Shown here one piece after another: positions 1,664 through 20,217 of a stretch of DNA of 26,352 nt (position 1 is the stretch's first letter; each line of letters begins with the position of its first letter). This stretch comes from a virus. Under the pieces are notes generated by a model that made no database searches, had not been told where the DNA came from, and saw only the letters and a list, made by a program, of their open reading frames with translations. The translations under genes and the position numbers were made by a program. Location: the IMG/VR virus record IMGVR_UViG_3300046517_000816, positions 1-26,352 of that record; one strand, 5' to 3'.

Positions 1664-1948
1664 ATGCCAGCTAGCATGAAGGACGTCATCTCGGTCCCCT
1701 GGACCGACGAGGAGCGCACCACCCTGCGCCAGATGTGGCAGAACGGCATGGGCGTGACGCTCCTGGGGCGCATGCTGGGGCGCTCCAAGTATTCCGTCGC
1801 CAAACAGGTGCGGGCACTGCGCCTGGGGCCGCGTGGAGGCCCCGTAGCGCCGCCGCAACCGCCGCCACACCGCCAGCCACCACCGCAGCCGCTACGCCCG
1901 GGCGCTCACACCCTGCCGCCGCTGCCGAGTGAACTACAGGGAACCTGA
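1664..1948 (+). CDS. GcrA-like helix-turn-helix protein with proline-rich tail
   Basis: A 94-residue protein. Residues 12-55 (PWTDEERTTLRQMW, then GVTLLGRMLGRSKYSVAKQV) read as a three-helix DNA-binding domain like the N-terminus of GcrA, the alphaproteobacterial cell-cycle regulator that works with sigma70 at methylated promoters. The tail from about 58 is almost all Pro, Arg, Gln and His. ATG 1664 is chosen for its GAGGAG site seven bases upstream. The stop overlaps the portal start (TGATG), so it is translationally coupled to the capsid genes. It could regulate the late operon. A role as a terminase small subunit is a weaker option suggested only by its place directly before the portal gene. 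Confidence 0.6.
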   Translation: MPASMKDVISVPWTDEERTTLRQMWQNGMGVTLLGRMLGRSKYSVAKQVRALRLGPRGGPVAPPQPPPHRQPPPQPLRPGAHTLPPLPSELQGT

Positions 1949-4146
1949 TGGCCCGACGCCCACAATCCGGTGATGCTGCGATCGTGCGCGAGGCGAAAGC
2001 CCGTTTCGAGCGCTGCGTGGCGTGGGAGAGCGCGTGGAGAGAGCGAGCGCTGTTTGACACTCGTTTCGCCAACGGTGACAGCGCCAATATGTGGCAATGG
2101 GACACCAATGTGCGCTCCGAGCGCGGTTCCCGACCGTCACTGACGTACAACCAGGTCCGCCAGCACAACCTCCAGGTCATCAATGACGCGAGGCAGAACA
2201 AAGCGCAGATAAAAGTCACGCCTACCGGTGGCCGAGCCTCATACGAGGCCGCACAAGTCTTTTCCGGCATCATCCGCCGCATCGAGTATGTGTCGAAGGC
2301 CGTCGATGCCTACAGCACAGCCACATACCACCAGGTCGAGTCGGGCATCGGCTACGTCCGCGTCCAAACGGACTACTGCGATGACACCTCGTTCGACCTC
2401 GACCTGTTCATCCGCCGCATTGCCGATCCGCGCACCGTCTACATGGACCCAGACGCCAAACTCTACGACAAATCCGACGCCAACTTCGCGTTTGTGTTCG
2501 AGGACATCCCGCGCGACCGCTACGAGGAGGAATACGGCGCCGAGGACAGTCCCGCCCCGGTCACCCTCGAACACTCGGACGGCTGGAACGACAAGGATCA
2601 CGTCAGGATCGCTGAATACTGGCGCGTCAACATGGCCAACGCCACGCTCCACCGCCTGCAGGACGGCACCGTGGTGCGGGACGACGAGATACCCGACGAG
2701 CTACGCGATCAGGTCAAGCCGCTGATCGTGAAGTCGAGGGACATCGCCGAGCCGAAAATCGAGTGGTTCAAGCTGGCCGGCGACCGCGTCATCGACCGCG
2801 AGGAATGGCTCGGGAAATACATTCCTTTCGTGCCGTTCATCGGAGAGGAAACCGTCATCGCCGGCGAGATGGATCGCAAGGGGCATACCAGAAGCCAAAT
2901 AGATGCCCAAAGGATTTATAACTACTGGGCTTCGGCAGCCGTCGAGCAGGTCGCGCTGCAGACCAAGTCACCGTATGTCGCGCGGGCCGATGCGATAGAA
3001 GGCCGTGAAGAGCAGTGGGCCACCGCCAACGTCAAGAACTGGTCGGTGCTGGTCTATAATTCGCTCGATGAGAAGAGCAACGCGATCCCGCGTCCCGAGC
3101 GCGAGCCACCGCCGCAGATGGCGCAGGCGTATATACAAGGGATGCAGATCGCCCGCCAGGACCTGATGAGCGTGACCGGCCAGTATCAGGCCGAGTTGGG
3201 CATGCCGAGCAACGAACGCAGCGGCATTGCAATACAGCAGCGCCAGCGGCAGGGCGACACCGCGACATACCACTACATCGACAACCAGGCGAAAGGCATC
3301 CGGCAGATCGGCCGCATCCTCATCGACCTCATTCCCAAGGTTTACGATGTGCGCCGGGTCGTCATGACGCTGGCCGAGGATGGCACCGAGAACAAGGTGC
3401 TGGTTGATCCGCAGGCGCAGGACGCGCACCAGTTCGTTGCTCAGCAGCCTGACGGCTCGCACGCGCCGGTCACACCAGGCGATGCGCAGAAGCAGCAGGA
3501 AGACCCGGAACAGCCTGATCCCTCCGTCATCTTCAACCCACAGATCGGGCAGTACGACGTTGAGGCCGATGTTGGCCCGGCGTACGGCACGCAGCGGCAA
3601 GAGGCCGCGAACGCATTCGCGCAGATAATGGCGCAAAACCCGGCGGCGTTTCAGGTCGTTGGCGATTTCTGGGCTACCAACAGCGACTTCCCCGGCGCCG
3701 ACGAACTGGCCGATCGGCTAAAGCGGGGCCTGCCGCCGCAATACAAGGCCGGCCCTGATCCTCAGGTGCTTGCGGTGCAGCAACAAGCCCAGCAGATGGT
3801 CGAGCACGCCAAGCAACTGCTCGGGCAGGCCGATCAGGAGATCGCGCAACTCAAACAGCAGGTCGCGGAGCTCCAGTCGCAGGCGAAGGACAAGGGCGCC
3901 GAGATCGCGGTGAAGGACTACGACGCCGAAACCCGCAGATTGGCCGCTGTCGGCAGCATCGACCCGCACAGTACGCAGATCATCGTTCGGGACATGGTCT
4001 CCGACATGCTCGGCACGCGCTTGCAGCCCATCCTGGAGGGCCACGCCGACGTGCAGGGCGACCTGGCAGCGCGCATGGCCCCACCAGTGCCACCGAATGG
4101 CTCCGACGCCTCCGGAGGCTCTCCAGCGCCGGCACCGGTGCAGTGA
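1948..4146 (+). CDS. Portal protein, P22 gp1-like
   Basis: A 732-residue protein, close to the 725 of P22 gp1. Twelve copies of a portal form the DNA entry and exit ring at one capsid vertex, receive DNA from the terminase and hold the tail. The N-terminal part (WRERALFDTRFANGD, then RPSLTYNQVRQ near 66-76), the Asp/Tyr-rich clip/wing region and the FVPFIGEE stretch near 294-301 fit the P22-type portal family. Residues about 610-700 are Gln/Lys-rich helices with coiled-coil character, as expected for the barrel that projects into the capsid. The C-terminus is a disordered Pro/Ala tail ending SPAPAPVQ. The DNA for that end is repeated 514 bases downstream. It starts by TGATG overlap with the previous gene. 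Confidence 0.92.
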   Translation: MARRPQSGDAAIVREAKARFERCVAWESAWRERALFDTRFANGDSANMWQWDTNVRSERGSRPSLTYNQVRQHNLQVINDARQNKAQIKVTPTGGRASYEAAQVFSGIIRRIEYVSKAVDAYSTATYHQVESGIGYVRVQTDYCDDTSFDLDLFIRRIADPRTVYMDPDAKLYDKSDANFAFVFEDIPRDRYEEEYGAEDSPAPVTLEHSDGWNDKDHVRIAEYWRVNMANATLHRLQDGTVVRDDEIPDELRDQVKPLIVKSRDIAEPKIEWFKLAGDRVIDREEWLGKYIPFVPFIGEETVIAGEMDRKGHTRSQIDAQRIYNYWASAAVEQVALQTKSPYVARADAIEGREEQWATANVKNWSVLVYNSLDEKSNAIPRPEREPPPQMAQAYIQGMQIARQDLMSVTGQYQAELGMPSNERSGIAIQQRQRQGDTATYHYIDNQAKGIRQIGRILIDLIPKVYDVRRVVMTLAEDGTENKVLVDPQAQDAHQFVAQQPDGSHAPVTPGDAQKQQEDPEQPDPSVIFNPQIGQYDVEADVGPAYGTQRQEAANAFAQIMAQNPAAFQVVGDFWATNSDFPGADELADRLKRGLPPQYKAGPDPQVLAVQQQAQQMVEHAKQLLGQADQEIAQLKQQVAELQSQAKDKGAEIAVKDYDAETRRLAAVGSIDPHSTQIIVRDMVSDMLGTRLQPILEGHADVQGDLAARMAPPVPPNGSDASGGSPAPAPVQ
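4126..4146 (+). repeat. Left copy of a 21-bp direct repeat (end of portal gene)
   Basis: These 21 bases encode the last portal residues (APAPVQ) and stop, and are repeated exactly at 4640-4660. The flanks of the two copies differ. The pair brackets the miniature coat gene, as expected if that gene entered by recombination that duplicated the target or brought its own copy of the portal end. Confidence 0.9.
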
Positions 4147-4661: not shown

Positions 4662-6434
4662 TTGGCCGTCAACCTGCTCCAGTATGGCGACCCCTACGGG
4701 CTCAGCGACAACCCGCTGGGGCGCGCGCCTGCGCCACCCTATGACCCGGCCACCGCGACGCTGCCGGATACCGGGAAACCGACAGTTGTGGACCCGTTGG
4801 TGGACTGGCTCGCCGCGATGCGGGCGAAGCACCTTCAGCGCACCGAGACCACACCGATCTGGCCGCTGACGAACCCGGTCGGCACCCAGAGCCTGGGCGA
4901 GCAGTCGCTGAGTATGCCGCAGGGGCCATACGATCAGGTCGCGTTTATGCGGCAGGACGGCTCGCCGGTCATGGCCTCGGATATAGCGGCGGCGCATCAG
5001 GCGATAGAGACCGCGAAGGACGTGGCGCCGACTATGGCGCTCGGCATGATGGGGACGACCGGCGCGCGCTACCGCCGCATCGGCCCGGGCTACGAGACGA
5101 TCGATCCTAGCGTTCCCGCGCCGCCCGGCGAGCCGCCGGCTTTCGGCATCGGGCACAACAACCCGCCAGTCCGCAGCGCCATCTGGGCGGCGCCACAGAC
5201 GCGTGGCGCGGCAACCGCGACGATAGGACGGATGGGCTCCAACGCGGATGCGACGCTCGAGGCGTTGGGGCTGCCGGCCTACAACGACATCGTGCCGTCG
5301 ACCAACACCGGCCCGGTGCCCGAGAGCCTGGTCCAATCGGGCTCGCCCGTGCGGCCTGGCCAGGTGTTCGACCTGTCCGATACCTGGCGCGTGCCGGATG
5401 TCCCGCAGGAACCGCTGTCGCGCATCGATCCCGAGGCGGGGCGCCGCAAGGGGCTGCCGCCGCACATCATCGACGCCACCACCGATCCCGAGATCCGCGC
5501 TAAGCTGCGGACGGTGGCAGAGGCGGGGCTGAAGACCGGCGGCGCCTACTGGTACAACGCCGAGCCCCTACGCCTGGCGTTTGTCACCGAGTTGGGACCA
5601 GAGGAAGGCAACGCCACGTTTGCTAAATACATGCGCACGGTTGGCGCCGTTTCGGCCGGGTCCGACGTGAGCCAGAACATTAGGACCGCGAGCTACTACA
5701 ACGTGCGTGAGCGACAGGGAAACCCGGTGCAGGGGGAGCAACTTCCTAACAAGAAGTGGACGCCAATCGATTTAGAAAGCCCTTACGGGCACAAAATGCA
5801 GGGCGCGCAATACGGCGCTTACCGCGACATTGCCGGCGGCAATCCGCTCGATCCAGAGATGCGCCCGAAGCGCGCCAGCTTCGACGCCAATCTGAGTGGC
5901 AATCAGGAGCCGGTAACGGTGGACAAGCACAATTTGCGCCTGATCGGCATGCTGTCGAAAGACCCCGAGTTCCTCAACACGACGCAGACGGCGGACGTTA
6001 ATTACCCGTCGATCGGGGTGAAGAAGGGCGACAAGATCAACTGGCGCGATGAGGTCAAATCGGGGCGGCTCACGATCGACCAGATGCTGGAAATACCGCA
6101 GGCCTGGAAGGACGTGCCCGAGGCCAACCACTACGCCGCCCTGGAGGGCTTCCAGCAGGATCTGGCGCGCGAGATGGGCATAAGCCCCGCGCAGCTGCAG
6201 GCGGCGCTGTGGGTGGGCGGGGGGCGCGTCACGGGGCTGCGCTCGCTACCGACATCCTTTATGGGTGCCGTCGAGGGCCGCCTGCAGAAGACCGCCGCCA
6301 CGCTCGGCGGCACGCCCACCAAGGCATTGCTCGACTTCGTGCGCGGCAAGAAGCCCCTGCTGTCACCGCTCGCGGCGACGGTCGGCGCTGGTGCGGCGGC
6401 TAACGCCCTGCAGCCCGACGATACTCGTCAATGA
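4662..6434 (+). CDS. Large phage protein of unknown function (IGHNNPP motif)
   Basis: A 590-residue protein. The frame is blocked by a stop at 4626-4628 and the first usable start is TTG at 4662, one base past the direct repeat; an earlier ATG or GTG may have been lost in that rearrangement. The N-terminal third is Pro/Gly-rich and contains FGIGHNNPP at 161-169, a short motif recurring in phage proteins. Residues about 280-525 look like one folded domain with KTGGAYWYNAEPLRLAF, VDKHNLRLIGM near 420-430 and LQAALWVGGG near 512-521, a pattern resembling conserved domains of unknown function in other phages. The C-terminus is an Ala/Gly-rich hydrophobic segment. Its place between portal and scaffold fits a minor virion or internal protein; I cannot assign an activity. 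Confidence 0.8.
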   Translation: MAVNLLQYGDPYGLSDNPLGRAPAPPYDPATATLPDTGKPTVVDPLVDWLAAMRAKHLQRTETTPIWPLTNPVGTQSLGEQSLSMPQGPYDQVAFMRQDGSPVMASDIAAAHQAIETAKDVAPTMALGMMGTTGARYRRIGPGYETIDPSVPAPPGEPPAFGIGHNNPPVRSAIWAAPQTRGAATATIGRMGSNADATLEALGLPAYNDIVPSTNTGPVPESLVQSGSPVRPGQVFDLSDTWRVPDVPQEPLSRIDPEAGRRKGLPPHIIDATTDPEIRAKLRTVAEAGLKTGGAYWYNAEPLRLAFVTELGPEEGNATFAKYMRTVGAVSAGSDVSQNIRTASYYNVRERQGNPVQGEQLPNKKWTPIDLESPYGHKMQGAQYGAYRDIAGGNPLDPEMRPKRASFDANLSGNQEPVTVDKHNLRLIGMLSKDPEFLNTTQTADVNYPSIGVKKGDKINWRDEVKSGRLTIDQMLEIPQAWKDVPEANHYAALEGFQQDLAREMGISPAQLQAALWVGGGRVTGLRSLPTSFMGAVEGRLQKTAATLGGTPTKALLDFVRGKKPLLSPLAATVGAGAAANALQPDDTRQ

Positions 6435-8198: not shown

Positions 8199-9401
8199 AT
8201 GCCCGCTACAAATACACTCCTCACTATAAATATGATAACGGCGAAGGCGCTCGCAATACTGCACCAGAAGTGCAACATTATAGGTGCAGTAAACCGCCAA
8301 TACGATGACAGTTTCGCCAACTCAGGCGCCAAAATAGGCAGCACACTACGCATCCGACTGCCAGTGCAATACACCGTCTCCACCACCCCGGCACTGTCGC
8401 TGCAGAACACGGTGGAGAACTACGTCTCCCTGCCGATCACCAACCAGTACCACGTCGATTTCTCGTTCTCGTCCGCCGAACTGACGCTGACCATCGATGA
8501 CTTCTCGGCTCGCTACATCGAGCCCGCAATCGCCGTGCTGGCCGCCAGGCTGGAGAGCGACTTCGTCAACCAGATGTGGCCGCAGGTGTGGAATTCGGTC
8601 GGGGCAGCCGGCGTAGCGCAGACATTCAAAACGGTGCTTCAGGCCCGCAAGCTGCTGCTCGACAACCTGACGCCGCAAAGCAAGCAGTGGCTGCTGCGCA
8701 TAAATACGCAGGACAACGTGGATATGGTAGACAGCCTCAAGGGCCTGTTCCAGTCCACCACCGAGATCAGGAGCCAGTACACCGATGGCGTCATGGGCCT
8801 GTCGGCAGGCTTCGAATGGGCTGAGAATACCCACCTGACCACGCAAACCAGAGGCGCCGAGAGCCAAACCTACACCACCGCCGTCGTCGCCAACCAGAAC
8901 ACCGGTAGCACACTCGCCGTCATCACCGGCACCGGAGCAGGCAACGCCGGCGACGTGTTCACCATCGCTGGCGTGTTCAGGTGTCATCCCGAGACCAAGG
9001 TGTCGTCCGGCGTTCTGCAGCAGTTCGTGTTGACGGCCAACTACGCAGGCGGCGGCGGCAATATGAGCATCGCACCCGCCATCAACGGCGTGAGCGGCAG
9101 CCCGAGCCAGAACGTCGTCACCGTCGCCAACGCGACTGCGGCGCTCACATTCGCCAACACCGCCAGCACAGCAACCGGGCTGTCGCTCGCGTTCCATCCC
9201 GACGCTTTTACATTCGCCACAGCAGACCTAGTGATGCCGGGAGGGGTCGATATGGCTTCTCGCGTGGTAAAGGACGGCATCAGCATGCGCGCTGTGCGCC
9301 AGTACAGCATCAGCGATGACACCATGCCTATCCGCATCGATGTGCTTTGGGGCGCCGCCGCGTTGCGTCCGCAGCTCGCGGTTCGGTTGGTTGCTAATTG
9401 A
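8199..9401 (+). CDS. Major coat protein, P22 gp5-like
   Basis: A 400-residue protein (P22 gp5 has 430) of the HK97 fold, P22 branch. The N-arm (ITAKALAILHQK, then KIGSTLRIRLPV at 45-56) and the following VDFSFSSAELTLTIDDFSARYIEP (86-109) match the P22-coat-like pattern. A Gly/Thr/Val-rich segment at about 225-325 probably forms the surface insertion domain. The C-terminal block has VVKDGISMRAVRQYSISDDT. ATG 8199 is preceded by AAAGGGG. The first 100 bases are AT-richer than the rest and use ATA codons repeatedly, which may keep the start of a highly expressed gene unfolded. Pieces of this protein recur at 4143 and 6862. Confidence 0.9.
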   Translation: MPATNTLLTINMITAKALAILHQKCNIIGAVNRQYDDSFANSGAKIGSTLRIRLPVQYTVSTTPALSLQNTVENYVSLPITNQYHVDFSFSSAELTLTIDDFSARYIEPAIAVLAARLESDFVNQMWPQVWNSVGAAGVAQTFKTVLQARKLLLDNLTPQSKQWLLRINTQDNVDMVDSLKGLFQSTTEIRSQYTDGVMGLSAGFEWAENTHLTTQTRGAESQTYTTAVVANQNTGSTLAVITGTGAGNAGDVFTIAGVFRCHPETKVSSGVLQQFVLTANYAGGGGNMSIAPAINGVSGSPSQNVVTVANATAALTFANTASTATGLSLAFHPDAFTFATADLVMPGGVDMASRVVKDGISMRAVRQYSISDDTMPIRIDVLWGAAALRPQLAVRLVAN

Positions 9402-9890: not shown

Positions 9891-12206
9891 ATGACCATCG
9901 CCAACGACATCATCTTCCTGTCGCTGCGCAATTCAGGCGTCAACGGCATCGGCCAGACGCCGATGGCGCAGGATGTCAACGACGCCTTCCGCGTTCTCAA
10001 CGCCATGATCCTCGAGTGGGAATGGGAACGCACAGTCCAGGTCAACCGCACGCCGCTGCCGGTGTTTCCCGACCTCACCACCGATGTGCCGTTTTGGTCC
10101 CAGTATGAACACGTCTTGCTTACGACGCTGGCGGTGCGGCTGCGCCAGGTCTACTCGCTGCCGCCGATCCAGCTCGACGTGCAGCTCGCCGTGGGCGCGC
10201 TCAAGGCGTTCAGCGCCCTCAATCTGCAGTTCACCACCGCCCCGGCTATCGCAGCCGATGACGGCACTGGCTATGGCATCGTGTTCCTGGCTCTCCGCGC
10301 CGCCGGCCGCGTGACAGACGCCCAAGGCGTGCTGCAGACCAGCCAGGATGTTACCGACGCACACTCGCTGATGAATGAGATGCTCGACGAGTGGCAGCGC
10401 GAGCGCACTGTCCGCGTCATCTCAGGCACCCTCTCGCCGATCACCGATCTGAGCCTGCCGCTCGTGATGACGCCCGGCGAGAAGAACGCAGTCGTTCTTA
10501 ACCTCGGTGTGCGATTGCGCGATGCCTATGGCACCGAGGTCTCGAAGACGCTGGTCGAGCGAGCCGATCGTGCGCTGCAATTACTGCAAGCGATTAACCT
10601 GCAGCAGACGCCGCCCCCTACGATCGCAGCTGATGACGGCACCGGTTATGGCATCATCTACCTTGCGCTACGCACATCAGGCCGGGTGACCGACAACCAG
10701 GGCGTGCTGCAATCGTCGCAGGACGTGACCGACGCCCACAGCCTCCTCTCCGAGATGCTGGACGAGTGGCAGCGGGAACGGACGGTGCGGGTCATCCCCG
10801 GCACGCTCGCGCTCATCACGGATCTCAGTGCCCCGCTGAGCGTCACGCCGGGCGAGAAGAACGCCTTGGTGCTGAACCTCGGTGTCCGTCTCCGCGACTG
10901 GTTCGGCGCCGAGCCATCCAAGCCGCTCAACGATCGTGCTGACCGCGCCCTGCAACTGCTGCAAGCCATTAACCTGCAGCAGAACCCGGCGCCGACCATC
11001 GCCGCTAACGACAGCACCGGCTATGGCCTGGTGTATCTCGCGCTACGCGCTGCCGGCCGCGTCACCGACAACCAGGGCATTACCCAGAGCTCGCAAGATG
11101 TCACTGACGCCGCCTCGCTCATGAACGAGATGCTGGACGAATGGAACCGCGAGCGTGCGGTCAAGGTCATCCCCGGTACGCTGCCAACCATCCCCAGCCT
11201 GGCGGCGCCCCTGACGCTCACCTCGGGCGTCCGCAATGCCATCGTGCTCAACCTCGCAGTGCGGCTGCGTGACTGGGTTGGGGCCGACGTCTCCAAGACC
11301 CTGCTGGATCGCGCCACGACGGCGCTGGGGCTGGTCCAGGCCAATAACCAGCACCAGACAGCGCCCATCCACCCAGGGCCGCCAGAGACCGTCATAGAGG
11401 CGCTGTTCCTGGCACTCCGCATGGCCGGACGCATCACCGACACGCAGAGCGTCGCTGACGGCAGCAAGGATGTGGCCGACGCGTTCTCGCTGCTGGTGAT
11501 GATGCTTGGCCAGTGGCAGCGCAAGCGCTGGCTGGTGTGGCACGAGGAGGACGTGGCGCTGGTCTCGACCGGCGCTGATTTTTACACCATCGGACCCGGC
11601 GAGGATTTCGATTGCGCGCGGCCCGATAAGATCCACGCCGCCAAGATCGTCATCGGCCCCGGCGGGTTCGGCACGACCGCGGCGCTGCCGGAACAACTGC
11701 CGTTCCCGCTCGGGGCACAGCAAACCGTACGCACGCCCAACCTGGTCAACATCCCGCTTGCCATCATCGAGGCCAAGGAAGACTGGAACACCATCGCCAT
11801 CCCTGATCTGAAGTCGATTCCCTCGGCGGTGTTCTACGACAGCAGCTTCCCGGTCGGCCGGGTGTATTTTTGGCCGGTGGCGCCAGCCAACGCCTATGAG
11901 CTGCAACTTACCGTCAAGGGCCAGCTTCCGGTATATACGAGCGTCAATGACGACCTGGCGCTGCCGCCGGAATACCTCGACGCCATCATCAACAACCTGG
12001 CGGTCCGGATCGTGGTCGCCAGCAATGTGCCGGTCAGTCCGTTCCTGCTGGCAGAAGCGCGGGCGTCGCTCAACACCATCAAGCTGGCGAACACCCAGAT
12101 ACCGCTGCTGAGCATGCCGGCGGCACTCGGAGGCCATCGCAGCGGCGATGTCTCCAGCTGGGTCGGGCGTGGCATCGCCTGGACCATCAGCGGCGGCGCC
12201 CCTTAA
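9891..12206 (+). CDS. gp4-like connector protein with four extra tandem helical repeats
   Basis: A 771-residue protein whose last 271 residues (501-771) read as a complete P22 gp4-like head-to-tail connector: a helical start (EALFLALRMAGRI), FYTIGPGEDFD near 564-574, PVGRVYFWPV near 654-663, and LPPEYLDAIINNLAVRI. P22 gp4 has 166 residues and seals the portal after packaging. Residues 1-500 contain four more copies of the helical part, with FLALR-type motifs at about 9, 132, 257 and 382, a 125-residue period, and the beta domain replaced by a short loop. Copies differ mainly at synonymous sites, so they look old and maintained. The extra copies could give each subunit several portal-binding helices. 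The ring stoichiometry is unknown. Confidence 0.82.
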   Translation: MTIANDIIFLSLRNSGVNGIGQTPMAQDVNDAFRVLNAMILEWEWERTVQVNRTPLPVFPDLTTDVPFWSQYEHVLLTTLAVRLRQVYSLPPIQLDVQLAVGALKAFSALNLQFTTAPAIAADDGTGYGIVFLALRAAGRVTDAQGVLQTSQDVTDAHSLMNEMLDEWQRERTVRVISGTLSPITDLSLPLVMTPGEKNAVVLNLGVRLRDAYGTEVSKTLVERADRALQLLQAINLQQTPPPTIAADDGTGYGIIYLALRTSGRVTDNQGVLQSSQDVTDAHSLLSEMLDEWQRERTVRVIPGTLALITDLSAPLSVTPGEKNALVLNLGVRLRDWFGAEPSKPLNDRADRALQLLQAINLQQNPAPTIAANDSTGYGLVYLALRAAGRVTDNQGITQSSQDVTDAASLMNEMLDEWNRERAVKVIPGTLPTIPSLAAPLTLTSGVRNAIVLNLAVRLRDWVGADVSKTLLDRATTALGLVQANNQHQTAPIHPGPPETVIEALFLALRMAGRITDTQSVADGSKDVADAFSLLVMMLGQWQRKRWLVWHEEDVALVSTGADFYTIGPGEDFDCARPDKIHAAKIVIGPGGFGTTAALPEQLPFPLGAQQTVRTPNLVNIPLAIIEAKEDWNTIAIPDLKSIPSAVFYDSSFPVGRVYFWPVAPANAYELQLTVKGQLPVYTSVNDDLALPPEYLDAIINNLAVRIVVASNVPVSPFLLAEARASLNTIKLANTQIPLLSMPAALGGHRSGDVSSWVGRGIAWTISGGAP
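10263..11387 (+). repeat. Three 375-bp in-frame tandem repeats in the connector gene
   Basis: Copies begin at 10263, 10638 and 11013, each 375 bases (125 codons; the last aligns slightly shorter), marked by GTGYG/STGYG, LALR, SQDVTDA and the (N/S)EMLDEW motif. A more diverged copy precedes them (9891-10262) and the connector's own helical part follows (from 11391). Differences cluster at third codon positions. Confidence 0.9.
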
Positions 12207-12224: not shown

Positions 12225-14558
12225 ATGAATGCTGGCAATCGGGCCGCCGTGGCGCGTCTGGCCGCATCCCCACGTACCACGACACCGTCAGGGAGTGGCG
12301 CATCCGGCTCGGGCTATCCCTGGTCCGATGGGGATATACTCTATGCTGGCGATCTCAACGCCGCCATCGAGCTGGGCATCGCGAGCGGCAGTGGCTCGAT
12401 CACCCAGGTCGGCCTCGACAAACGCCTATATGGCACCGACGGTAAACGCCTGCAGATCCGCGCCATCACCAGTTTCGCCAATACTTTTGCCCTGTTCAGC
12501 GACGGCTATCGCTTCGATTGGGGCATTCGCAACAGCCAGAACAGCGCCAGTATTGCCAGCGTCAGTCCGCCGATCAACCGTGGTGGTGTTTACGGCCGGT
12601 GGCTGTCCTATACCTATCAGGACGACGCGACCTGCAAGAACACGATCAACCAGTATAAGCAATACGGCTTCAATACCATCCGCACCTGGGTCGGCATCGG
12701 CATGCTGAAGACCGCGCCGTTTACCGATGCGGTGACCGGGTTGAGCTTCCCCACCGAGATCGAGCTGCTCGACAATTTCGTGCGGTTCACCCAGGAACTC
12801 GGCATGTATCTCTGGCTGACGTTCGGTCAGGGGTCAGTGCCGGACGACCAGCACGCGGCGTTCTGGGCCGTCATCGCCACGCGCTACAGAGCCGCGCGGC
12901 ACGTCATCTTGGACATCCAGAATGAGCCTGGCAGTGGCACTGTGTTCGTCACCCCGTCCATTCCCACCCTGACCACACCATATAGCACTATCATGCCGAA
13001 CCTGGCGGCCTGGCGGGCGCGCTTCGAGGGGGCGCTTGCCGCCATTCGCGGCGCCGGGTTCAAGGGACCGGTCGCGGTGCAGCCGCTGAGCAACCTGTGG
13101 GGGATCGATACCATCCAGGCGGCGCTCAACAACCCGCCGTGGTCGCTCGATCCGAACATCATCGTGGCCCCGCATATGTATTACATCTGGGGTGATCCAC
13201 TACCTGGTGACCCACCAGTTACGTTCGTTAGTCAGCGCAACAACTGGGACGCCCACGTCACCAATTTCGCGCGCTATTACTGCATCGTTCACGGTGAAAT
13301 GGGACCGAGCAACGCGTACAACTATCTCAACCCACAGCCGGCGCTTGATTTCACGACCGAGGCGCTCGGGTGGTCGCAAAAAGAATGCTTCAGCGGCACC
13401 ACGTTCTTCACCGCGCAGCCACTGGCCAACCACTACAACGACATATGGGATAATATCGACCAGTTCACCCAGCTCGGGAACCTGACCGCCTGGGGCACCA
13501 ACCTGATGAACTACCACACCCATGGCGTGAACGCGCTGGCGCGGATGGTGCCTGACATCAAATCCACTAACGGCCCGCTGACCGATACCACCGGCAGCAC
13601 CGTGCTGTTCCATCGCGATGTCGAGCGTTACGATGTTGAGCTGCGCATTGCCATCGTCACCAACGGCACCGCATCCGGCACGCTGCTGGTGCGGCTGCCG
13701 TCGCCGGCGCCGACCGACCGCTATCAGTGGTTCCAGGGCATTTCGTCCACGGGCGCCTCGCTGCTGGTCAAGGTCATCGGCTTCTATGCCGAGATCACGT
13801 TAGCGGCGGACGGCAGCTATCCCGGTGCGAACGGTGTCGCGCTCACCACGTCGTTCACCTACTACGCCGCGAACAACGCGCAGGGGGCTGGATTCTCCTA
13901 CGCTCCTGCGAATTTCAACAACGACCACTGGTACACGCGCGGCGGGCTGATCACCGGGCTGGCTGACGGCAAGCAGGGTACGATCATCACCACACTGCAC
14001 ACGACGGGGTTCGGCGGCGACGGCACCTCGATGCGGCTGGTGCATACCAACACCGCCAAGATGACGCTGTTCCGCGATCCCAGCAACTTCCTCCATCTGC
14101 AACTGCGGAATGCCGCCGGCACATTGATCTGTGAGGTCGTGTCGCTGCTGCCGACCAGCACGTCGTCGCCAGAACATACGATCTTCGTCAGTTGGGATCT
14201 GAACACGCCCGAAGCGTGGCTCTTCATCAAGGGCGTGAACGAGACCGGCACGCCGCTGACGCTGGTCAACGACACGGTGGACTATACCGACAGCAACTTC
14301 GCGGTGGGCGGCACAGTCGGTGGATTAGACCTGGTGCGCGGCACGATGGACTTCTTCTGGTTCAACGACACGTTCCACCACCCCGGCAACTACATCAACA
14401 ACGGCTGTTTCTTCGATGAGTTCGACGCGCCGATCGATGTCGGCAAATACGGCGATGCGCTGACCGGCGGGTTGCCCCGGATCTTCCTGCGTAATCTCGA
14501 CGTAGGCAGCACGTTCGCCACCAACCGGGGAACCGGCGGCAACTTCACGCTGAACTAA
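12225..14558 (+). CDS. Tail appendage protein with GH5-like (cellulase-type) domain
   Basis: A 777-residue protein. Residues 1-70 are a Ser/Gly-rich lead and a short beta segment that probably attach to the tail. Residues about 115-440 resemble a glycoside hydrolase 5/clan A barrel: FNTIRTWVGIG (149-159), ILDIQNEP with putative acid/base E234, HMYYIWG (317-323), and VHGEMGP with putative nucleophile E358. Residues about 560-760 are beta-rich and look like a concanavalin/LamG-type carbohydrate-binding domain. GH5 enzymes hydrolyse beta-1,4 glucans, mannans and related polymers, so this is a candidate depolymerase that opens the host's exopolysaccharide, perhaps bacterial cellulose. AAGGAA precedes ATG 12225. 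Substrate is inference; both catalytic glutamates are present. Confidence 0.75.
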   Translation: MNAGNRAAVARLAASPRTTTPSGSGASGSGYPWSDGDILYAGDLNAAIELGIASGSGSITQVGLDKRLYGTDGKRLQIRAITSFANTFALFSDGYRFDWGIRNSQNSASIASVSPPINRGGVYGRWLSYTYQDDATCKNTINQYKQYGFNTIRTWVGIGMLKTAPFTDAVTGLSFPTEIELLDNFVRFTQELGMYLWLTFGQGSVPDDQHAAFWAVIATRYRAARHVILDIQNEPGSGTVFVTPSIPTLTTPYSTIMPNLAAWRARFEGALAAIRGAGFKGPVAVQPLSNLWGIDTIQAALNNPPWSLDPNIIVAPHMYYIWGDPLPGDPPVTFVSQRNNWDAHVTNFARYYCIVHGEMGPSNAYNYLNPQPALDFTTEALGWSQKECFSGTTFFTAQPLANHYNDIWDNIDQFTQLGNLTAWGTNLMNYHTHGVNALARMVPDIKSTNGPLTDTTGSTVLFHRDVERYDVELRIAIVTNGTASGTLLVRLPSPAPTDRYQWFQGISSTGASLLVKVIGFYAEITLAADGSYPGANGVALTTSFTYYAANNAQGAGFSYAPANFNNDHWYTRGGLITGLADGKQGTIITTLHTTGFGGDGTSMRLVHTNTAKMTLFRDPSNFLHLQLRNAAGTLICEVVSLLPTSTSSPEHTIFVSWDLNTPEAWLFIKGVNETGTPLTLVNDTVDYTDSNFAVGGTVGGLDLVRGTMDFFWFNDTFHHPGNYINNGCFFDEFDAPIDVGKYGDALTGGLPRIFLRNLDVGSTFATNRGTGGNFTLN

Positions 14559-14775: not shown

Positions 14776-16671
14776 GTGGCCGCATCTGATCCATCGCCAG
14801 GCGTGGCGACGCGCACGGGCGTGCTACAGGGCGTTGCGGCGTTTAGCTGGGATAGTACCGCCTGGCAGCCTGTCGACCGTGCTGGGCCAGCGGTGGCGAC
14901 ACCGACGGGCGCGCTGCAGGGTGTCGCGCCATTCGCCTGGGACGGCTCTGTATGGCAGCCATCAGGTCGGGCTGGTCCGGGTGTGGCGACGCCAACCGGC
15001 GTGCTGGACGGCGTCGCAGTTTACACATGGTCAGGGTCAGCATGGACGCCGGCGGGCGGTACAGCCACGCCCTCGACGCCCAGCGGCGCCCTGCGCGGGG
15101 TGGCGGCATTCAGTTGGGATGGCTCAGCATGGCAGCCTGCTGCGCAGGCGGGGCCGAGCGTGCCGACGCCGTACGGCGTGCTGCAGGGCGTGGCTGTGTT
15201 CAACTGGACCGGCAGCGCCTGGTCGCCAGGCTCGGCGCTACCGGCTGGGGCTACGCTCGACCTGTCGTTCCTGACACCGGGATCATTGGACCCGCGCATC
15301 ACCTTCACACGCGCGTCCACAGCCACGTATTTCGACAGCACCGGCACGTTGCAGACGGCTGCAACGAACCTGATATTGCAGAGCAGCGATGCAAGCAACG
15401 CAACGTGGCTTAAGGCTGGTGCGGTTGTAGTAGCGCCAATTGTAACGGGCAATCAAACGACAGCGCCTGATGGAACCCTTACTGCCAGTCGTGCAGTGTA
15501 TCCTGCTGTGGTAGGAACGAATGCACTGAGCGTTGTTTACCAAAACATTGCACTGCCAACAGGGGTGTATACGTTCACTGCTTATTTGAAGGGCAATGTT
15601 GGTGGGGAGCGGGTATGGCTGTCGGTTGCTGGCTGGGGAAGCGGTCCGGTTGCGACGCTGACAACACAATGGCAACGCTTCACCTTTGTTACGCCTACAC
15701 TGCCTACGGCCACTTTTGGTTTTCAAATAGGCGTTGATTTACGCGATGGAGCACAAACCAGCACCTCCGCACAAACTATCTTCATATGGGGCACACAGGT
15801 TGAGGTTGGCTCATTAGCCTCGTTCTATACCCCCACCACGACCGTCGCCAACGGTGCGCCACGCTGGGACTACAACCCCAGCACGCACGCACTCAATGGA
15901 TTGCTGATCGAGGAAGCGCGGACCAATCTGCTGCTCAATAGTGCGACACTCGGCACGCAGTCTGTCACCGTCACGGCAGTTGCCACGACGCTGTCGTTCT
16001 ATGGCACCGGAACGGTGACGCTCAGCGGCACATTCGCGGGTTCTCTCGTCGGCACTGGTGCTTTCCCTGCCCGCGCATCACTGACGTTCACGCCCACCGC
16101 CGGGACGTTGACATGCACAGTCACAGGCACAGTGACCAACGCGCAAGTGGAAGCAGGCGCCTTCCCCACCAGCTACATCCCGACGACAGCAGCGAGTGTG
16201 ACGCGCGCAGCAGACAACGCCTCGATGCCAACCGCTGCATGGTTCAACGCAAGTGCGGGGACATTGCAAGCCGAAGTGATGATTGCACGTGCAACCGAAG
16301 CAGCGCGCTTCGCAGGGCTTGTGCAGATTGATAGTGGATCGAATACAAATCGCTTCAACATAACGACATGGACGGGGCTTAACTCTATTCGCATATTTGC
16401 CGCACCATCCAATCCAGGCGTGATCCTGGGGAACTGGATTGCGAACGCGATCACCAAAGGCGCTGCAACGTACGCCGGTCTTGCCGTGACCGGATCGCTG
16501 AACGGGGCTGCCATCCAGTCCGGTGCAATGGGTAGTTCGCCTGTTGGCATCAACAACCTGAAGGTTGGTTGCTCGGCCGCAGCCGGGGATGAACTCGATG
16601 GATGGATACGCCGTATCCGTTATTGGCCTCGTGCGCTGTCCAACGCCGAGCTGCAGGCGGTGACAAGCTGA
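14776..16671 (+). CDS. Repeat-containing tail fibre with carbohydrate-binding-like domains
   Basis: A 631-residue protein from GTG 14776, with GGAG seven bases upstream. Residues 8-156 are five 29-30-residue repeats with the pattern TPTGxLQGVAxFxWDGSAWQP. A motif common in phage tail proteins follows (RITFTRASTATYFDSTG, 174-190), then a jelly-roll-like domain (about 195-350), a GLLIEEARTNLLL junction (374-386), a second shorter beta domain to about 465, and a C-terminal concanavalin-like domain (about 475-631, ending in a WIRRIRYWPRALSNAEL-type strand). The DNA at 15403-15810 for the first jelly roll has only about 43-53% GC in lines counted by hand, suggesting an acquired domain. It is probably a receptor-binding fibre. 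The stop overlaps the next start (TGATG). Confidence 0.78.
   Translation: MAASDPSPGVATRTGVLQGVAAFSWDSTAWQPVDRAGPAVATPTGALQGVAPFAWDGSVWQPSGRAGPGVATPTGVLDGVAVYTWSGSAWTPAGGTATPSTPSGALRGVAAFSWDGSAWQPAAQAGPSVPTPYGVLQGVAVFNWTGSAWSPGSALPAGATLDLSFLTPGSLDPRITFTRASTATYFDSTGTLQTAATNLILQSSDASNATWLKAGAVVVAPIVTGNQTTAPDGTLTASRAVYPAVVGTNALSVVYQNIALPTGVYTFTAYLKGNVGGERVWLSVAGWGSGPVATLTTQWQRFTFVTPTLPTATFGFQIGVDLRDGAQTSTSAQTIFIWGTQVEVGSLASFYTPTTTVANGAPRWDYNPSTHALNGLLIEEARTNLLLNSATLGTQSVTVTAVATTLSFYGTGTVTLSGTFAGSLVGTGAFPARASLTFTPTAGTLTCTVTGTVTNAQVEAGAFPTSYIPTTAASVTRAADNASMPTAAWFNASAGTLQAEVMIARATEAARFAGLVQIDSGSNTNRFNITTWTGLNSIRIFAAPSNPGVILGNWIANAITKGAATYAGLAVTGSLNGAAIQSGAMGSSPVGINNLKVGCSAAAGDELDGWIRRIRYWPRALSNAELQAVTS
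14797..15243 (+). repeat. Five in-frame 90-bp repeats in the fibre gene
   Basis: Units encode residues 8-37, 38-67, 68-97, 98-126 and 127-156; the fourth is one codon short. Each has a Gly-Val-Ala core and a Trp-x-Gly-Ser-x-Trp pair. The units are diverged at the DNA level, so the array is not recent. Confidence 0.85.
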
Positions 16672-18212
16672 TGGCGCAGCCGGTTCCACTCAACGGGGGC
16701 GCCTACCAGGCGCGCAGCGTGACCGCTGCGGCGCAGCGTGCGCTCAACCTCTACGCCGAGCCGATCCCCGAGGCCGAGGGTGAGCCGGCGCGCATGTCGC
16801 ACTACCCGACACCCGGCAGCACCTGGCTCACCGAGATCGACACCGGCCCGGTGCGTGGCATCTACCAGGCCAGCAATGGCGCGGTCTACGTGGCGTCGGG
16901 CAACAACCTGCACTCGGTCAATCCCGCGACCTGGGTGGCGACAGCACTGGGCGGGCTCACGTCAGGCCTCACCACCCCCGTCTCAATGGCGGATAACGGG
17001 CTGGACCTGGTGGTGGTCGACGGCAGCGCCAACGGCTGGGTGGTCAACCTGATCGCCAATGTGATGACGCTCATCAGCGACCCGAATTTCTTCGGCGCCG
17101 ATAGCGTCCAATACCTCGACACGTTTTTCCTGTTCAACAAGCCAGGCACGCCGCAGTTCTACTGGAGCGGCAGCCTCGCGGTGACGTTCGATCCGCTCGA
17201 CTTCGCCAATAAGGAAAGCGCCTCGGATCTGCTGGTGACGATCGTGGTGGCGCGCCGCGAGGTCTACCTGCTCGGCGTTGCCACCAGCGAGGTGTTTTAT
17301 GACGCGGGCCAGCCTGGCGGCCCCGACGACAGTCAGTTCGCGCAGGTGCAGGGCGTATTTATCCCGCACGGCATCGCAGCGAAATACTCCGCCGCGTCCT
17401 ACGACAACGCGATCTTCTGGCTGTCGCGCAACAAGCAGGGGCGCGGCATCGTGATGACCAGCGCCGGCTATCAGACCAAGCGCATCAGCACCTACGCGAT
17501 CGAAACCGCGCTGCGTGGCTACGTTCGCATCGACGACGCGATAGGCTTCACCTACCAGATCAACGGGCATGTGTTCTACGTGCTGACGTTCCCAGCCGCA
17601 GATCACACCTGGTGCTTCGATACCGGCACGGGACTGTGGAACGAGTGGGGCTGGATCGACACTAACGGTGACGAGCACCGCCACCGCTCGAATTGCTTCT
17701 GCAGCGTCACCAACACCGGCAGCTCGATCAACAACACGCTGGTGATCGGCGACTGGCAGACCGGCGGCATCTACGCACTCGACAGCGATGTATACACAGA
17801 TGTCAGCGGCGAGGATGTTACCGGGCCGATCAAGCGGGTGCGCGCGTTCCCCCACCTGGTGAAAGACGGCCGGCGCATGTTCTACCGGGAATTTATCGCC
17901 GACATGGAGACCGGCACCGCGCCAAAGCTGGGGCCGGTGCCCGACAACCTGCTGGTGAGCCTCGACTGGTCCGATGACCGTGGGCACTCGTTCGGCAATC
18001 CGGTCACGCAGGCGATCGGCGGCACATCACCAACGCTCGGGGCCGGGGGGGATTACCAGACAGTCTTGCAGTGGCAACGTTGCGGAATGGCAAGAGATAG
18101 AGTGTTTCGCCTATCATGGACTGTGAACGCCCCCACGGTTCTCCAAGGGGCATGGGTTACAGCAGAAGCGGCTGATGCTGATGAGCCTGTGGCGGCAGCG
18201 GCAGCGGAGTGA
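16671..18212 (+). CDS. Packaged-DNA stabilisation/tail hub protein, P22 gp10-like
   Basis: A 513-residue protein (P22 gp10 has 472). ATG 16671 is chosen over an upstream in-frame start because it overlaps the previous stop (TGATG) and begins the family-typical MAQPVPLNGGAYQARSV. The chain is beta-rich with repeated blade-like segments: GIYQASNGAVYVASG, DNGLDLVVVDG, VQYLDTFFLFNKPGTPQFYW, and EVYLLGVATSEVFYDAG with YDNAIFWLSRNKQGRGIV. These match the propeller-like gp10 family. In P22, gp10 binds below gp4 and forms the hub of the tail. The Ala/Glu-rich end is probably disordered. Confidence 0.88.
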   Translation: MAQPVPLNGGAYQARSVTAAAQRALNLYAEPIPEAEGEPARMSHYPTPGSTWLTEIDTGPVRGIYQASNGAVYVASGNNLHSVNPATWVATALGGLTSGLTTPVSMADNGLDLVVVDGSANGWVVNLIANVMTLISDPNFFGADSVQYLDTFFLFNKPGTPQFYWSGSLAVTFDPLDFANKESASDLLVTIVVARREVYLLGVATSEVFYDAGQPGGPDDSQFAQVQGVFIPHGIAAKYSAASYDNAIFWLSRNKQGRGIVMTSAGYQTKRISTYAIETALRGYVRIDDAIGFTYQINGHVFYVLTFPAADHTWCFDTGTGLWNEWGWIDTNGDEHRHRSNCFCSVTNTGSSINNTLVIGDWQTGGIYALDSDVYTDVSGEDVTGPIKRVRAFPHLVKDGRRMFYREFIADMETGTAPKLGPVPDNLLVSLDWSDDRGHSFGNPVTQAIGGTSPTLGAGGDYQTVLQWQRCGMARDRVFRLSWTVNAPTVLQGAWVTAEAADADEPVAAAAAE

Positions 18213-19189: not shown

Positions 19190-19666
19190 ATGGCGGTCAG
19201 CGCACTCAATGCGGGCATTCCCAGCGGGCCTCTGCTGGAGGCGGATGGGACGCTCAGCAGCGCCTGGCGTGGGTTCTTCATGGCGCTGTATGCCCGCACG
19301 GGCGGCGCCTACGGCACCACGGTGGTGGGCGTGCAGAACGACGTCGATGCCGAGGCTGCGGCACGGGCTACAGCGGACACCACGCTGCAGGCGCACATTG
19401 CCGCCGAGGCCACCGCGCGCGCCGCTGGCGATGCCTCGGAGGCGTCTGCGCGGGCCAGTGGCGATGCAGCGCTCAATGCGGCGAAGGTCAATCGTGGCGG
19501 CGATGTCATGGCGGGGCCGCTCACGCTGCAGCAGGTTGGGTTCCAGGGCGTCGGCCCGCGTGGCACGCCGACGGTGACTGGCGCGTGGGCCGGCAACACC
19601 GCCGGCAAGGCGCTGTGCGTGGCGCTGGCTGCGTACGGCCTCGTGAACGATGCAACGAGTCCATGA
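19190..19666 (+). CDS. Second short coiled-coil fibre protein
   Basis: A 158-residue protein starting four bases after the previous stop. Residues 1-48 are a small folded start (LEADGTLSSAWRGFFMALYAR) like an attachment segment. Residues about 50-100 are heptad-type Ala/Asp/Thr repeats (EATARAAGDASEASARA), a trimeric coiled coil. RGGDVMAGPLTL, near residues 102-113, is a motif common in tail fibres, and a short Gly-rich end follows. It may extend the neighbouring fibre or form a separate thin one. The stop overlaps the next start (ATGA). Confidence 0.7.
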   Translation: MAVSALNAGIPSGPLLEADGTLSSAWRGFFMALYARTGGAYGTTVVGVQNDVDAEAAARATADTTLQAHIAAEATARAAGDASEASARASGDAALNAAKVNRGGDVMAGPLTLQQVGFQGVGPRGTPTVTGAWAGNTAGKALCVALAAYGLVNDATSP

Positions 19667-20217
19667 TGCGAAACTTTCAACTCGTAGCCGCCAACATCGA
19701 TGTGCTGCCGCTCGCACTGGAGATCTACCGGCAGCCCGAATTGTGGAACCAGCACAGCGCGCGCACGGGCGGCGCGGGCTCGTTCACCGGCACCGATGAC
19801 ATCTGGGTGCGGTTCCGCGATACAGCCGAGCTGGATTGCCGCGAGGCGTTCACCGAGCCGTTCGTGCCGGTGTTCTACCCCGCCTGGCACGCACTGCCGC
19901 ACCTGCGCCCGTTGGTGTTCGGCCTGATGGCGCGGCTCGAGGCGGTGCAGCTCGGGGGCATCCTGATCACGCGCGTGCCGCCAGGCTGCCAGGTTGCGCC
20001 GCACGACGATCGCGGACGCTGGCACCCGGAGTTCTTCCGCACCAAGGCCTACCTGCCGATCGCCAGCAACCCGCGCTGCGTCAGCACCTGCGAGGACGAC
20101 AGCCTAGTGATGTCGGTGGGCGAGGTCTGGCTGTTCGATAACTTGAAACTGCACAGCACGGTCAACGATGGCGATACCGATCGCATCACGCTGATCGTGT
20201 CGATGCGGGTGGAGTAG
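19663..20217 (+). CDS. 2-oxoglutarate/Fe(II) oxygenase, Asp/Asn beta-hydroxylase-like
   Basis: A 184-residue protein (ATG 19663, or the adjacent ATG 19666). The C-terminal half has the family pattern: VPPGCQVAPHDDRG (105-118) supplies the iron ligands H114 and D116; GEVWLFDNLKLHSTVNDGD (153-171) supplies the distal H164; and DRITLIVSMR places R174 where the co-substrate carboxylate is bound. Such enzymes couple 2-oxoglutarate decarboxylation to hydroxylation of a protein side chain or small molecule. It overlaps the fibre gene before it and is followed two bases later by a cupin gene. It may modify a virion protein or a host surface molecule; the substrate cannot be read from sequence. Confidence 0.8.
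   Translation: MMRNFQLVAANIDVLPLALEIYRQPELWNQHSARTGGAGSFTGTDDIWVRFRDTAELDCREAFTEPFVPVFYPAWHALPHLRPLVFGLMARLEAVQLGGILITRVPPGCQVAPHDDRGRWHPEFFRTKAYLPIASNPRCVSTCEDDSLVMSVGEVWLFDNLKLHSTVNDGDTDRITLIVSMRVE

Follow-up and report, generated by a model that had tools for sequence, protein, structure and literature searches.

A head-to-tail adaptor gene with five tandem helix-bundle units in a viral contig

All head-to-tail adaptors described up to 2019 were reported in that year's structural paper on T7 to have one four-helix bundle organisation (PMC6702177). In T7 and SU10, 12 adaptors are bound to the portal clip; the bundle bears the nozzle, the dock bears the fibre, and a C-terminal segment embraces the portal (PMC6702177, PMC9509320). 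In T7-like tails the adaptor dock and the nozzle dock lie on either side of the fibre (PMC10575957). The crAss001 tail contains five stacked dodecameric rings made of four paralogous gp4-fold proteins, which form a 23-nm barrel, and the 6-fold muzzle is bound by residues 15–26 of the protein in the last ring; according to the same 2023 paper, one such ring only had been seen in other podoviruses (PMC10172136). Lopes et al. listed eight phages in which Ad3 is encoded twice, by separate genes (PMC4362835).

The gene studied here is located in an IMG/VR virus contig of 26,352 bases, which was analysed over its whole length and is referred to below as the window. Its 771-aa product shares some features with each of these systems. 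The P22 gp4 and Sf6 gp7 adaptors (Ad3, Pfam P22_Tail-4) have the same four-helix bundle as its N-terminal units and a similar neighbourhood of P22-type portal, coat and gp10 genes, but P22 gp4 has one unit per chain and no beta dock, whereas here there are five units per chain and a beta insertion in the last one. The adaptors of the T7 gp11, SU10 gp11 and DEV, N4 and GP4 types (Pfam SU10_adaptor) resemble the last unit in the bundle, the inserted beta domain and the C-terminal tail; one bundle is known in them, whereas members of the present family carry one to four extra bundles ahead of it. As to the crAss001 tail barrel (rings R1–R5), the likeness would be in several gp4-fold rings per neck, although stacking between portal and nozzle is here proposed from the partition of bundle loops described below. 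The crAss001 rings are encoded by separate paralogous genes, 14.9–30.6% identical, each with a beta-sandwich (PMC10172136), whereas here a single chain would comprise all the rings, and its middle units are 67–81% identical at the protein level. The phages with two Ad3 genes also have more than one gp4-type adaptor per neck, but in separate genes and with no fused tandem chain (PMC4362835).

No description of a tandem adaptor was found in the searches of the open-access literature. A tblastn search of 50,697 phage records yielded single-unit relatives only, all of which match the C-terminal unit alone and none the N-terminal units; unit 2 by itself had no match there at E<=10. No relative was found in GTDB, of which about 85,000 prokaryote genomes were scanned twice, with the A2 and the A-unit alignments.

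Five adaptor units in one chain

The gene has a good ribosome-binding site and lies between the coat and fibre genes, where an adaptor gene is expected (Table 1). In a self-comparison of the protein, an offset of 125 residues gives 240 identities versus 65 at an offset of 124, which demonstrates a sharp period, and a 375-bp tandem array is detected by TRF at 10240–11078. The unit spacings set by HMM anchors are 118, 125 and 125 residues. The sequence-only reading had described tandem gp4 domains in one chain with a mostly exact 125-residue period, and both parts of this description are confirmed by the gene position, the period, the PHROG 637 matches and the predicted folds. Unit pairs score z = 17–97 relative to shuffled sequence, the exception being unit 1 versus unit 5 in local alignment (z = 5). 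Unit 1 (A) is 37–38% identical to units 2–4 (M1, M2 and M3), among which M1 and M2 are the closest, at 81%. Residues L10, L12, R13, G16, D28, V29, D31, A32, M39, W43, R47, L56, L80, V82, R83, A100, L104 and N111 (unit 1 numbering) are invariant in the alignment of all five units. The linkers between the units are short and proline-rich.

Table 1. Adaptor units and neighbouring structural genes of the window
Feature	Position	Strand	Evidence and remarks
Portal protein, P22 type, presumed adaptor partner	1948..4146	+	PF16510 1.3e-162
Major coat protein, P22 gp5 type	8199..9401	+	PF11651 1.1e-30, PHROG 283
Tandem head-to-tail adaptor gene, five helix-bundle units, 771 aa	9891..12206	+	
Unit A (unit 1), four-helix gp4 bundle	9891..10250	+	PHROG 637 Ad3 E=5e-6 alone; single-unit-like loops
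Helix1-helix2 loop of unit A (GVNGIGQTPMAQD region)	9936..9974	+	Signature common to single-unit adaptors
Helix3-helix4 loop of unit A (YSLPPIQLDV)	10152..10181	+	Same bundle end as helix1-helix2 loop
Unit M1 (unit 2), gp4 bundle	10251..10625	+	PHROG 637 4e-7; AF2 pLDDT 78.7; PDB matches
Unit M2 (unit 3), gp4 bundle	10626..11000	+	PHROG 637 6e-4
Unit M3 (unit 4), gp4 bundle	11001..11366	+	PHROG 637 1e-5
Unit C (unit 5), gp4 bundle with beta insertion and C-terminal tail	11367..12203	+	PHROG 12985 4e-22; AF2; PDB matches
Inserted beta domain of unit C, helix 2 to helix 3, likely fibre dock	11541..11921	+	AF2; Pfam SU10_adaptor
Conserved C-terminal tail GD.SSW.GRGL..AW, likely portal-embracing	12096..12203	+	Conserved alignment columns; after last unit only
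Tail fibre/spike with GH5 (cellulase) domain	12225..14558	+	GH5 2e-15
Nozzle, P22 gp10, head closure Hc3, presumed unit A partner	16671..18212	+	PHROG 578 7e-98

Each of the five units taken alone matches PHROG 637, the head-tail adaptor Ad3 family (E from 4e-7 to 6e-4). The AF2 model of unit 2, built from an alignment of 60 units, has four helices at residues 7–17, 32–54, 75–92 and 99–114. A failure of the N-terminal copies to resemble gp4 had been named beforehand as a weak point of the tandem claim; instead, the best 18 PDB matches of this model in a fold search are all P22 gp4 or Sf6 gp7, with a query-normalised TM of about 0.5–0.75, followed by T7 gp11, LME-1, Pan3 and similar adaptors. 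The helices predicted for unit A are at residues 3–15, 26–49, 67–87 and 94–112 (AF2). The full-length AF2 model contains five sets of four helices, with a beta insertion and a tail in unit 5 only; its pTM is 0.32, and thus the relative placement of the units is not fixed by the model. The initial interpretation of four helical parts of gp4 followed by one complete gp4-like domain is therefore right in the number of units, but the four N-terminal units already appear as complete four-helix bundles, and the fifth goes beyond P22 gp4 in having a beta insertion and a C-terminal tail of the T7/SU10 kind.

The insertion of unit C comprises about 127 residues (551–677) and seven strands in the AF2 model. 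The Pfam SU10_adaptor domain was found in 24 of the 29 family members, the score of the 771-aa protein alone being below the curated cut-off. The PDB matches of the full-length model are fibre-dock adaptors, namely those of cyanophage A4, Pa223, SU10, GP4, DEV and VP1. The tail of about 35 residues is conserved after the last unit and has a low pLDDT in the monomer model. The insertion is likely a fibre dock and the tail likely a portal-embracing segment; judging from the models, unit C represents a complete adaptor of the T7/SU10 type, and units 1–4 are bare gp4 bundles.

Some profile matches of the whole protein arise from the repeats. The Pfam P22_Tail-4 match (1.3e-7) is a score summed over the repeats, none of its stretches passing individually, and is not to be taken in isolation; a match to Pfam IFN-gamma (1.5e-6), again with none passing individually, has the same origin and was rejected as spurious. 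In a phmmer comparison of the whole protein with PDB sequences no match was obtained at E<=1.

Unit number and selection among relatives

By our own table count, 46 IMG/VR contigs, the window and 45 others, encode at least two units with an intact N-terminus; the unit counts leave out four 5'-truncated loci (L018, L029, L055 and L056), whose labels on the unit-C tree are too low. Five-unit proteins are encoded by the window, L002 and L003, which belong to at least two lineages of the coat tree. Four-unit relatives are L006, L022–L027 and L123, and the IMG/VR scans also gave three-, two- and one-unit relatives. The portals of phages with one to five units are about 72–84% identical to that of the window, and the coats within the phage group are 73–96% identical; a more distant single-unit outgroup is near 40%. 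The nozzle stays homologous across one to five units. In the tree of the unit-C region the multi-unit proteins form one group with support 100/99, the single-unit sisters being outside. Mapped on the coat tree, the unit number has altered at least 12 times, with two origins of the five-unit state.

Sequence assembly is known to go wrong at tandem repeats, and the sequence-only reading had pointed to an assembly artefact as the outcome that would undo it. An artefact of assembly, or a duplication without function, is hardly credible here. The longest exact repeat within the gene is just 16 bp, the middle units are only 66–73% identical in DNA, and the architecture occurs in many independent contigs, with the same multi-unit proteins or C units recurring in different metagenomes (for example L022/L023, L035–L038 and L028/L044). 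The dN/dS ratios are also well below 1. Between the window and L002, units 2–4 are 90–95% identical with dN/dS of 0.07–0.12, so that the extra units are not decaying spares, while unit A is 67% identical (dN/dS 0.31) and unit C 74% (dN/dS 0.25). These values point to purifying selection on the middle units, tighter than on the end units.

Among the middle copies of the window, dN/dS is 0.13 for M1–M2, 0.20 for M1–M3 and 0.26 for M2–M3, with dS above 1. The earlier statement that the copies differ mostly at synonymous sites applies to units 2 and 3 (47 of 71 changed codons); the synonymous share is about half for the pairs with unit 4 (42/82 and 38/77), and the statement fails for unit 1 (18–20 of about 90). 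Long maintenance of the copies, which had been suggested from this pattern, is supported.

On the unit tree the A units form one clade (100/99), and units 2, 3 and 4 of the window pair with the matching positions of L002. Units 2 and 3 of L003 cluster together, which represents a separate expansion. The units are thus position-specific. Adjacent middle units are exactly 125 residues apart in all proteins but one, where the distance is 124.

Three further proteins deserve mention. A divergent four-unit relative on a 43,239-base contig (L123) has a longer insertion in unit C with internal repeats 'LPxxPPAGGxWxxxGV'. In a fold search with the full-length model, 918 columns were aligned to BFVD entry A0A516M5L4 (1139 aa) and 541 columns to A0A516L4P3 (583 aa); from the model comparison, these two may be further tandem adaptors.

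Partition of the bundle ends and possible arrangement of the chain

In an up-down bundle the helix1-helix2 and helix3-helix4 loops share one end, opposite to that of the beta dock and the tail. The ends of the single-unit sisters are divided between units A and C of the tandem proteins. The helix1-helix2 loop of the sisters (LNGVGQTPLAED) is 60% identical to that of A, 18% to M and 14% to C, and for the helix3-helix4 loop the respective values are 34%, 10% and 17%. With C alone the sisters share the helix-2 end (74%), the helix-3 start (46%) and the tail following helix 4 (61%). For the first loop, A is nearer than C to the sisters in all 32 proteins, and for the second in 25 of 26 (the proteins are related and the counts are non-independent), whereas C is nearer than A in all proteins for the other three regions. 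The same partition was observed with a second, distant single-unit group. The helix1-helix2 loops of M and C are alike (50% identity), and the loop type of units 2–5 differs from that of unit 1 and of the single-unit adaptors.

The simplest reading of these comparisons is that the loops of the ancestral adaptor touched the nozzle and its opposite end touched the portal, and that in the tandem proteins A would retain the nozzle end and C the portal end, with the loops of M and C touching the next unit. The muzzle contact of residues 15–26 in the last ring protein of crAss001 agrees with such a nozzle end. The loop partition constitutes strong circumstantial evidence for this polarity, not proof. 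The site where a duplication cut the ancestral gene could contribute to the pattern; however, the A-C-A-C alternation along the chain needs several switches, and so a single crossover could not yield it.

We therefore propose, and consider probable, that the protein is a single-chain multi-ring adaptor, a covalently linked stack of 12-fold rings with the last unit at the portal and the first at the nozzle. The five dodecameric rings of crAss001 offer a direct structural precedent. Twelve chains would assemble on the portal. Their C units, which bear the beta dock and the embracing tail, would form the ordinary 12-fold ring of adaptors at the portal clip, and the units ahead of C would form further 12-fold rings along the tail axis, covalently joined at a fixed spacing. 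The protein of the window would thus make five rings: that of C on the portal, those of M1–M3 next and, last in the stack, that of A, which would receive the hexameric nozzle (gp10). The unit count would set the number of rings and the length of the neck (five rings here, one to five in relatives), with portal and nozzle unchanged. A structural consequence of the tandem chain at the connector, anticipated by the earlier analysis, is likely on this evidence.

Two observations count against a stack of rings. All crAss ring proteins have a beta domain, and units A and M lack it. Besides, extra rings would part the adaptor dock from the nozzle dock, the two sides of the fibre site in T7-like tails. 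Since extra rings would separate the adaptor dock from the nozzle, the longer fibre arms seen in many multi-unit phages fit the proposed stack; they equally fit an arrangement in which C alone forms the portal ring, and A and M are beads around the neck that provide extra fibre docks or contacts with the capsid vertex. Many multi-unit phages have an extra 16–34 aa before the fibre anchor motif, compared with 2–7 aa in 14 of 14 distinct single-unit phages, and the unit number changes easily while portal and coat are little changed, as could be expected for such lateral appendages. Yet the arms have just 2–12 aa in eight of ten distinct three-unit and two of twelve distinct two-unit proteins, and beads would leave unexplained the fixed spacing, the strong constraint on the middle units and the retention of nozzle-end loops by A alone. 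We regard the lateral arrangement as a possible but distinctly less likely one.

The sequence-only reading had suggested an altered connector stoichiometry or the bridging of several portal subunits, that is, one chain filling several of the 12 positions in a single adaptor ring. The fold is the same in every unit, and 12 is divisible by two, three and four units, but not by the five found in three proteins from two or more lineages of the coat tree. Sharing of one ring would also leave most portal sites unheld, the embracing tail and the dock being present on one unit per chain, and the end loops differ among A, M and C. This suggestion is accordingly disfavoured, and we consider it improbable.

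The short, proline-rich linkers and the existence of single-unit relatives as short proteins could agree with cleavage of the chain, or with internal initiation, as a source of several separate adaptors of one domain each. Such a polyprotein seems very unlikely: an in-frame start with a strong ribosome-binding site is absent from all unit boundaries, A and M units have no portal-binding tail, and the fused state is kept in 46 contigs.

If the units do stack as rings, the neck length of these short-tailed phages would be set by the number of domains that a single gene encodes. Units gained or lost in frame would add or remove whole 12-fold rings, and covalent stacks with one to five rings would exist independently of the multi-gene barrel of crassviruses. 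We lean towards this broader claim with somewhat less assurance than towards the ring arrangement itself. Close relatives with zero to four extra bundles and similar portal and coat would then make up a natural length series for comparing how tail length, DNA gating, fibre position and capsule penetration depend on the number of rings. The covalent link would also allow the subunit register to be tested by deleting units in frame.

Fibre arms and neighbouring genes

The fibre encoded next to the adaptor gene has the anchor motif YPW..GD.L.A.DLNAA at 12315, with a 30-aa arm ahead of it, and its GH5 domain suggests a polysaccharide receptor or capsule. Across the downstream fibre genes of the loci (for example L062:7773, L031:8303 and L038:8321) the anchor reads YPW..GD.L.A..LNAA. 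The arms of 16–34 aa in many multi-unit phages often contain an 'ARL...P' motif; the arm is absent in a subgroup of three-unit phages and in L019/L057. Arm length was rejected as a strict correlate of unit number, as several multi-unit phages have no arm. A relation between nozzle length and unit number was likewise rejected, the lengths overlapping between classes. For the nozzle gene of the window we used the ATG that overlaps the preceding stop (16671); the longest ORF is 16602–18212.

A fibre-like protein (14776–16671) opens with five copies of a repeat about 33 aa long (GVLQGVAAFSWDGSAWQP...). A link between these five repeats and the unit number was considered and rejected: similar genes are present elsewhere in relatives, one of them in a single-unit locus (L069).

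Two small ORFs resemble parts of the coat protein. ORF 6862–7206 matches coat residues 10–61 (48%, E=3e-12), and ORF 4143–4628 matches residues 81–120 (38%, E=2e-7) and 344–382 (31%); they flank ORF 4662–6434. The two ORFs may be what is left of a second coat gene that an insertion divided, or else decoy fragments. An aspartyl/asparaginyl beta-hydroxylase-like gene (19585–20217, 1e-11) is located in the structural module, and many relatives have it at about this place. A PEP-CTERM protein is encoded at the contig edge ahead of the portal gene (173–910), and this is possibly host DNA or a cargo gene.
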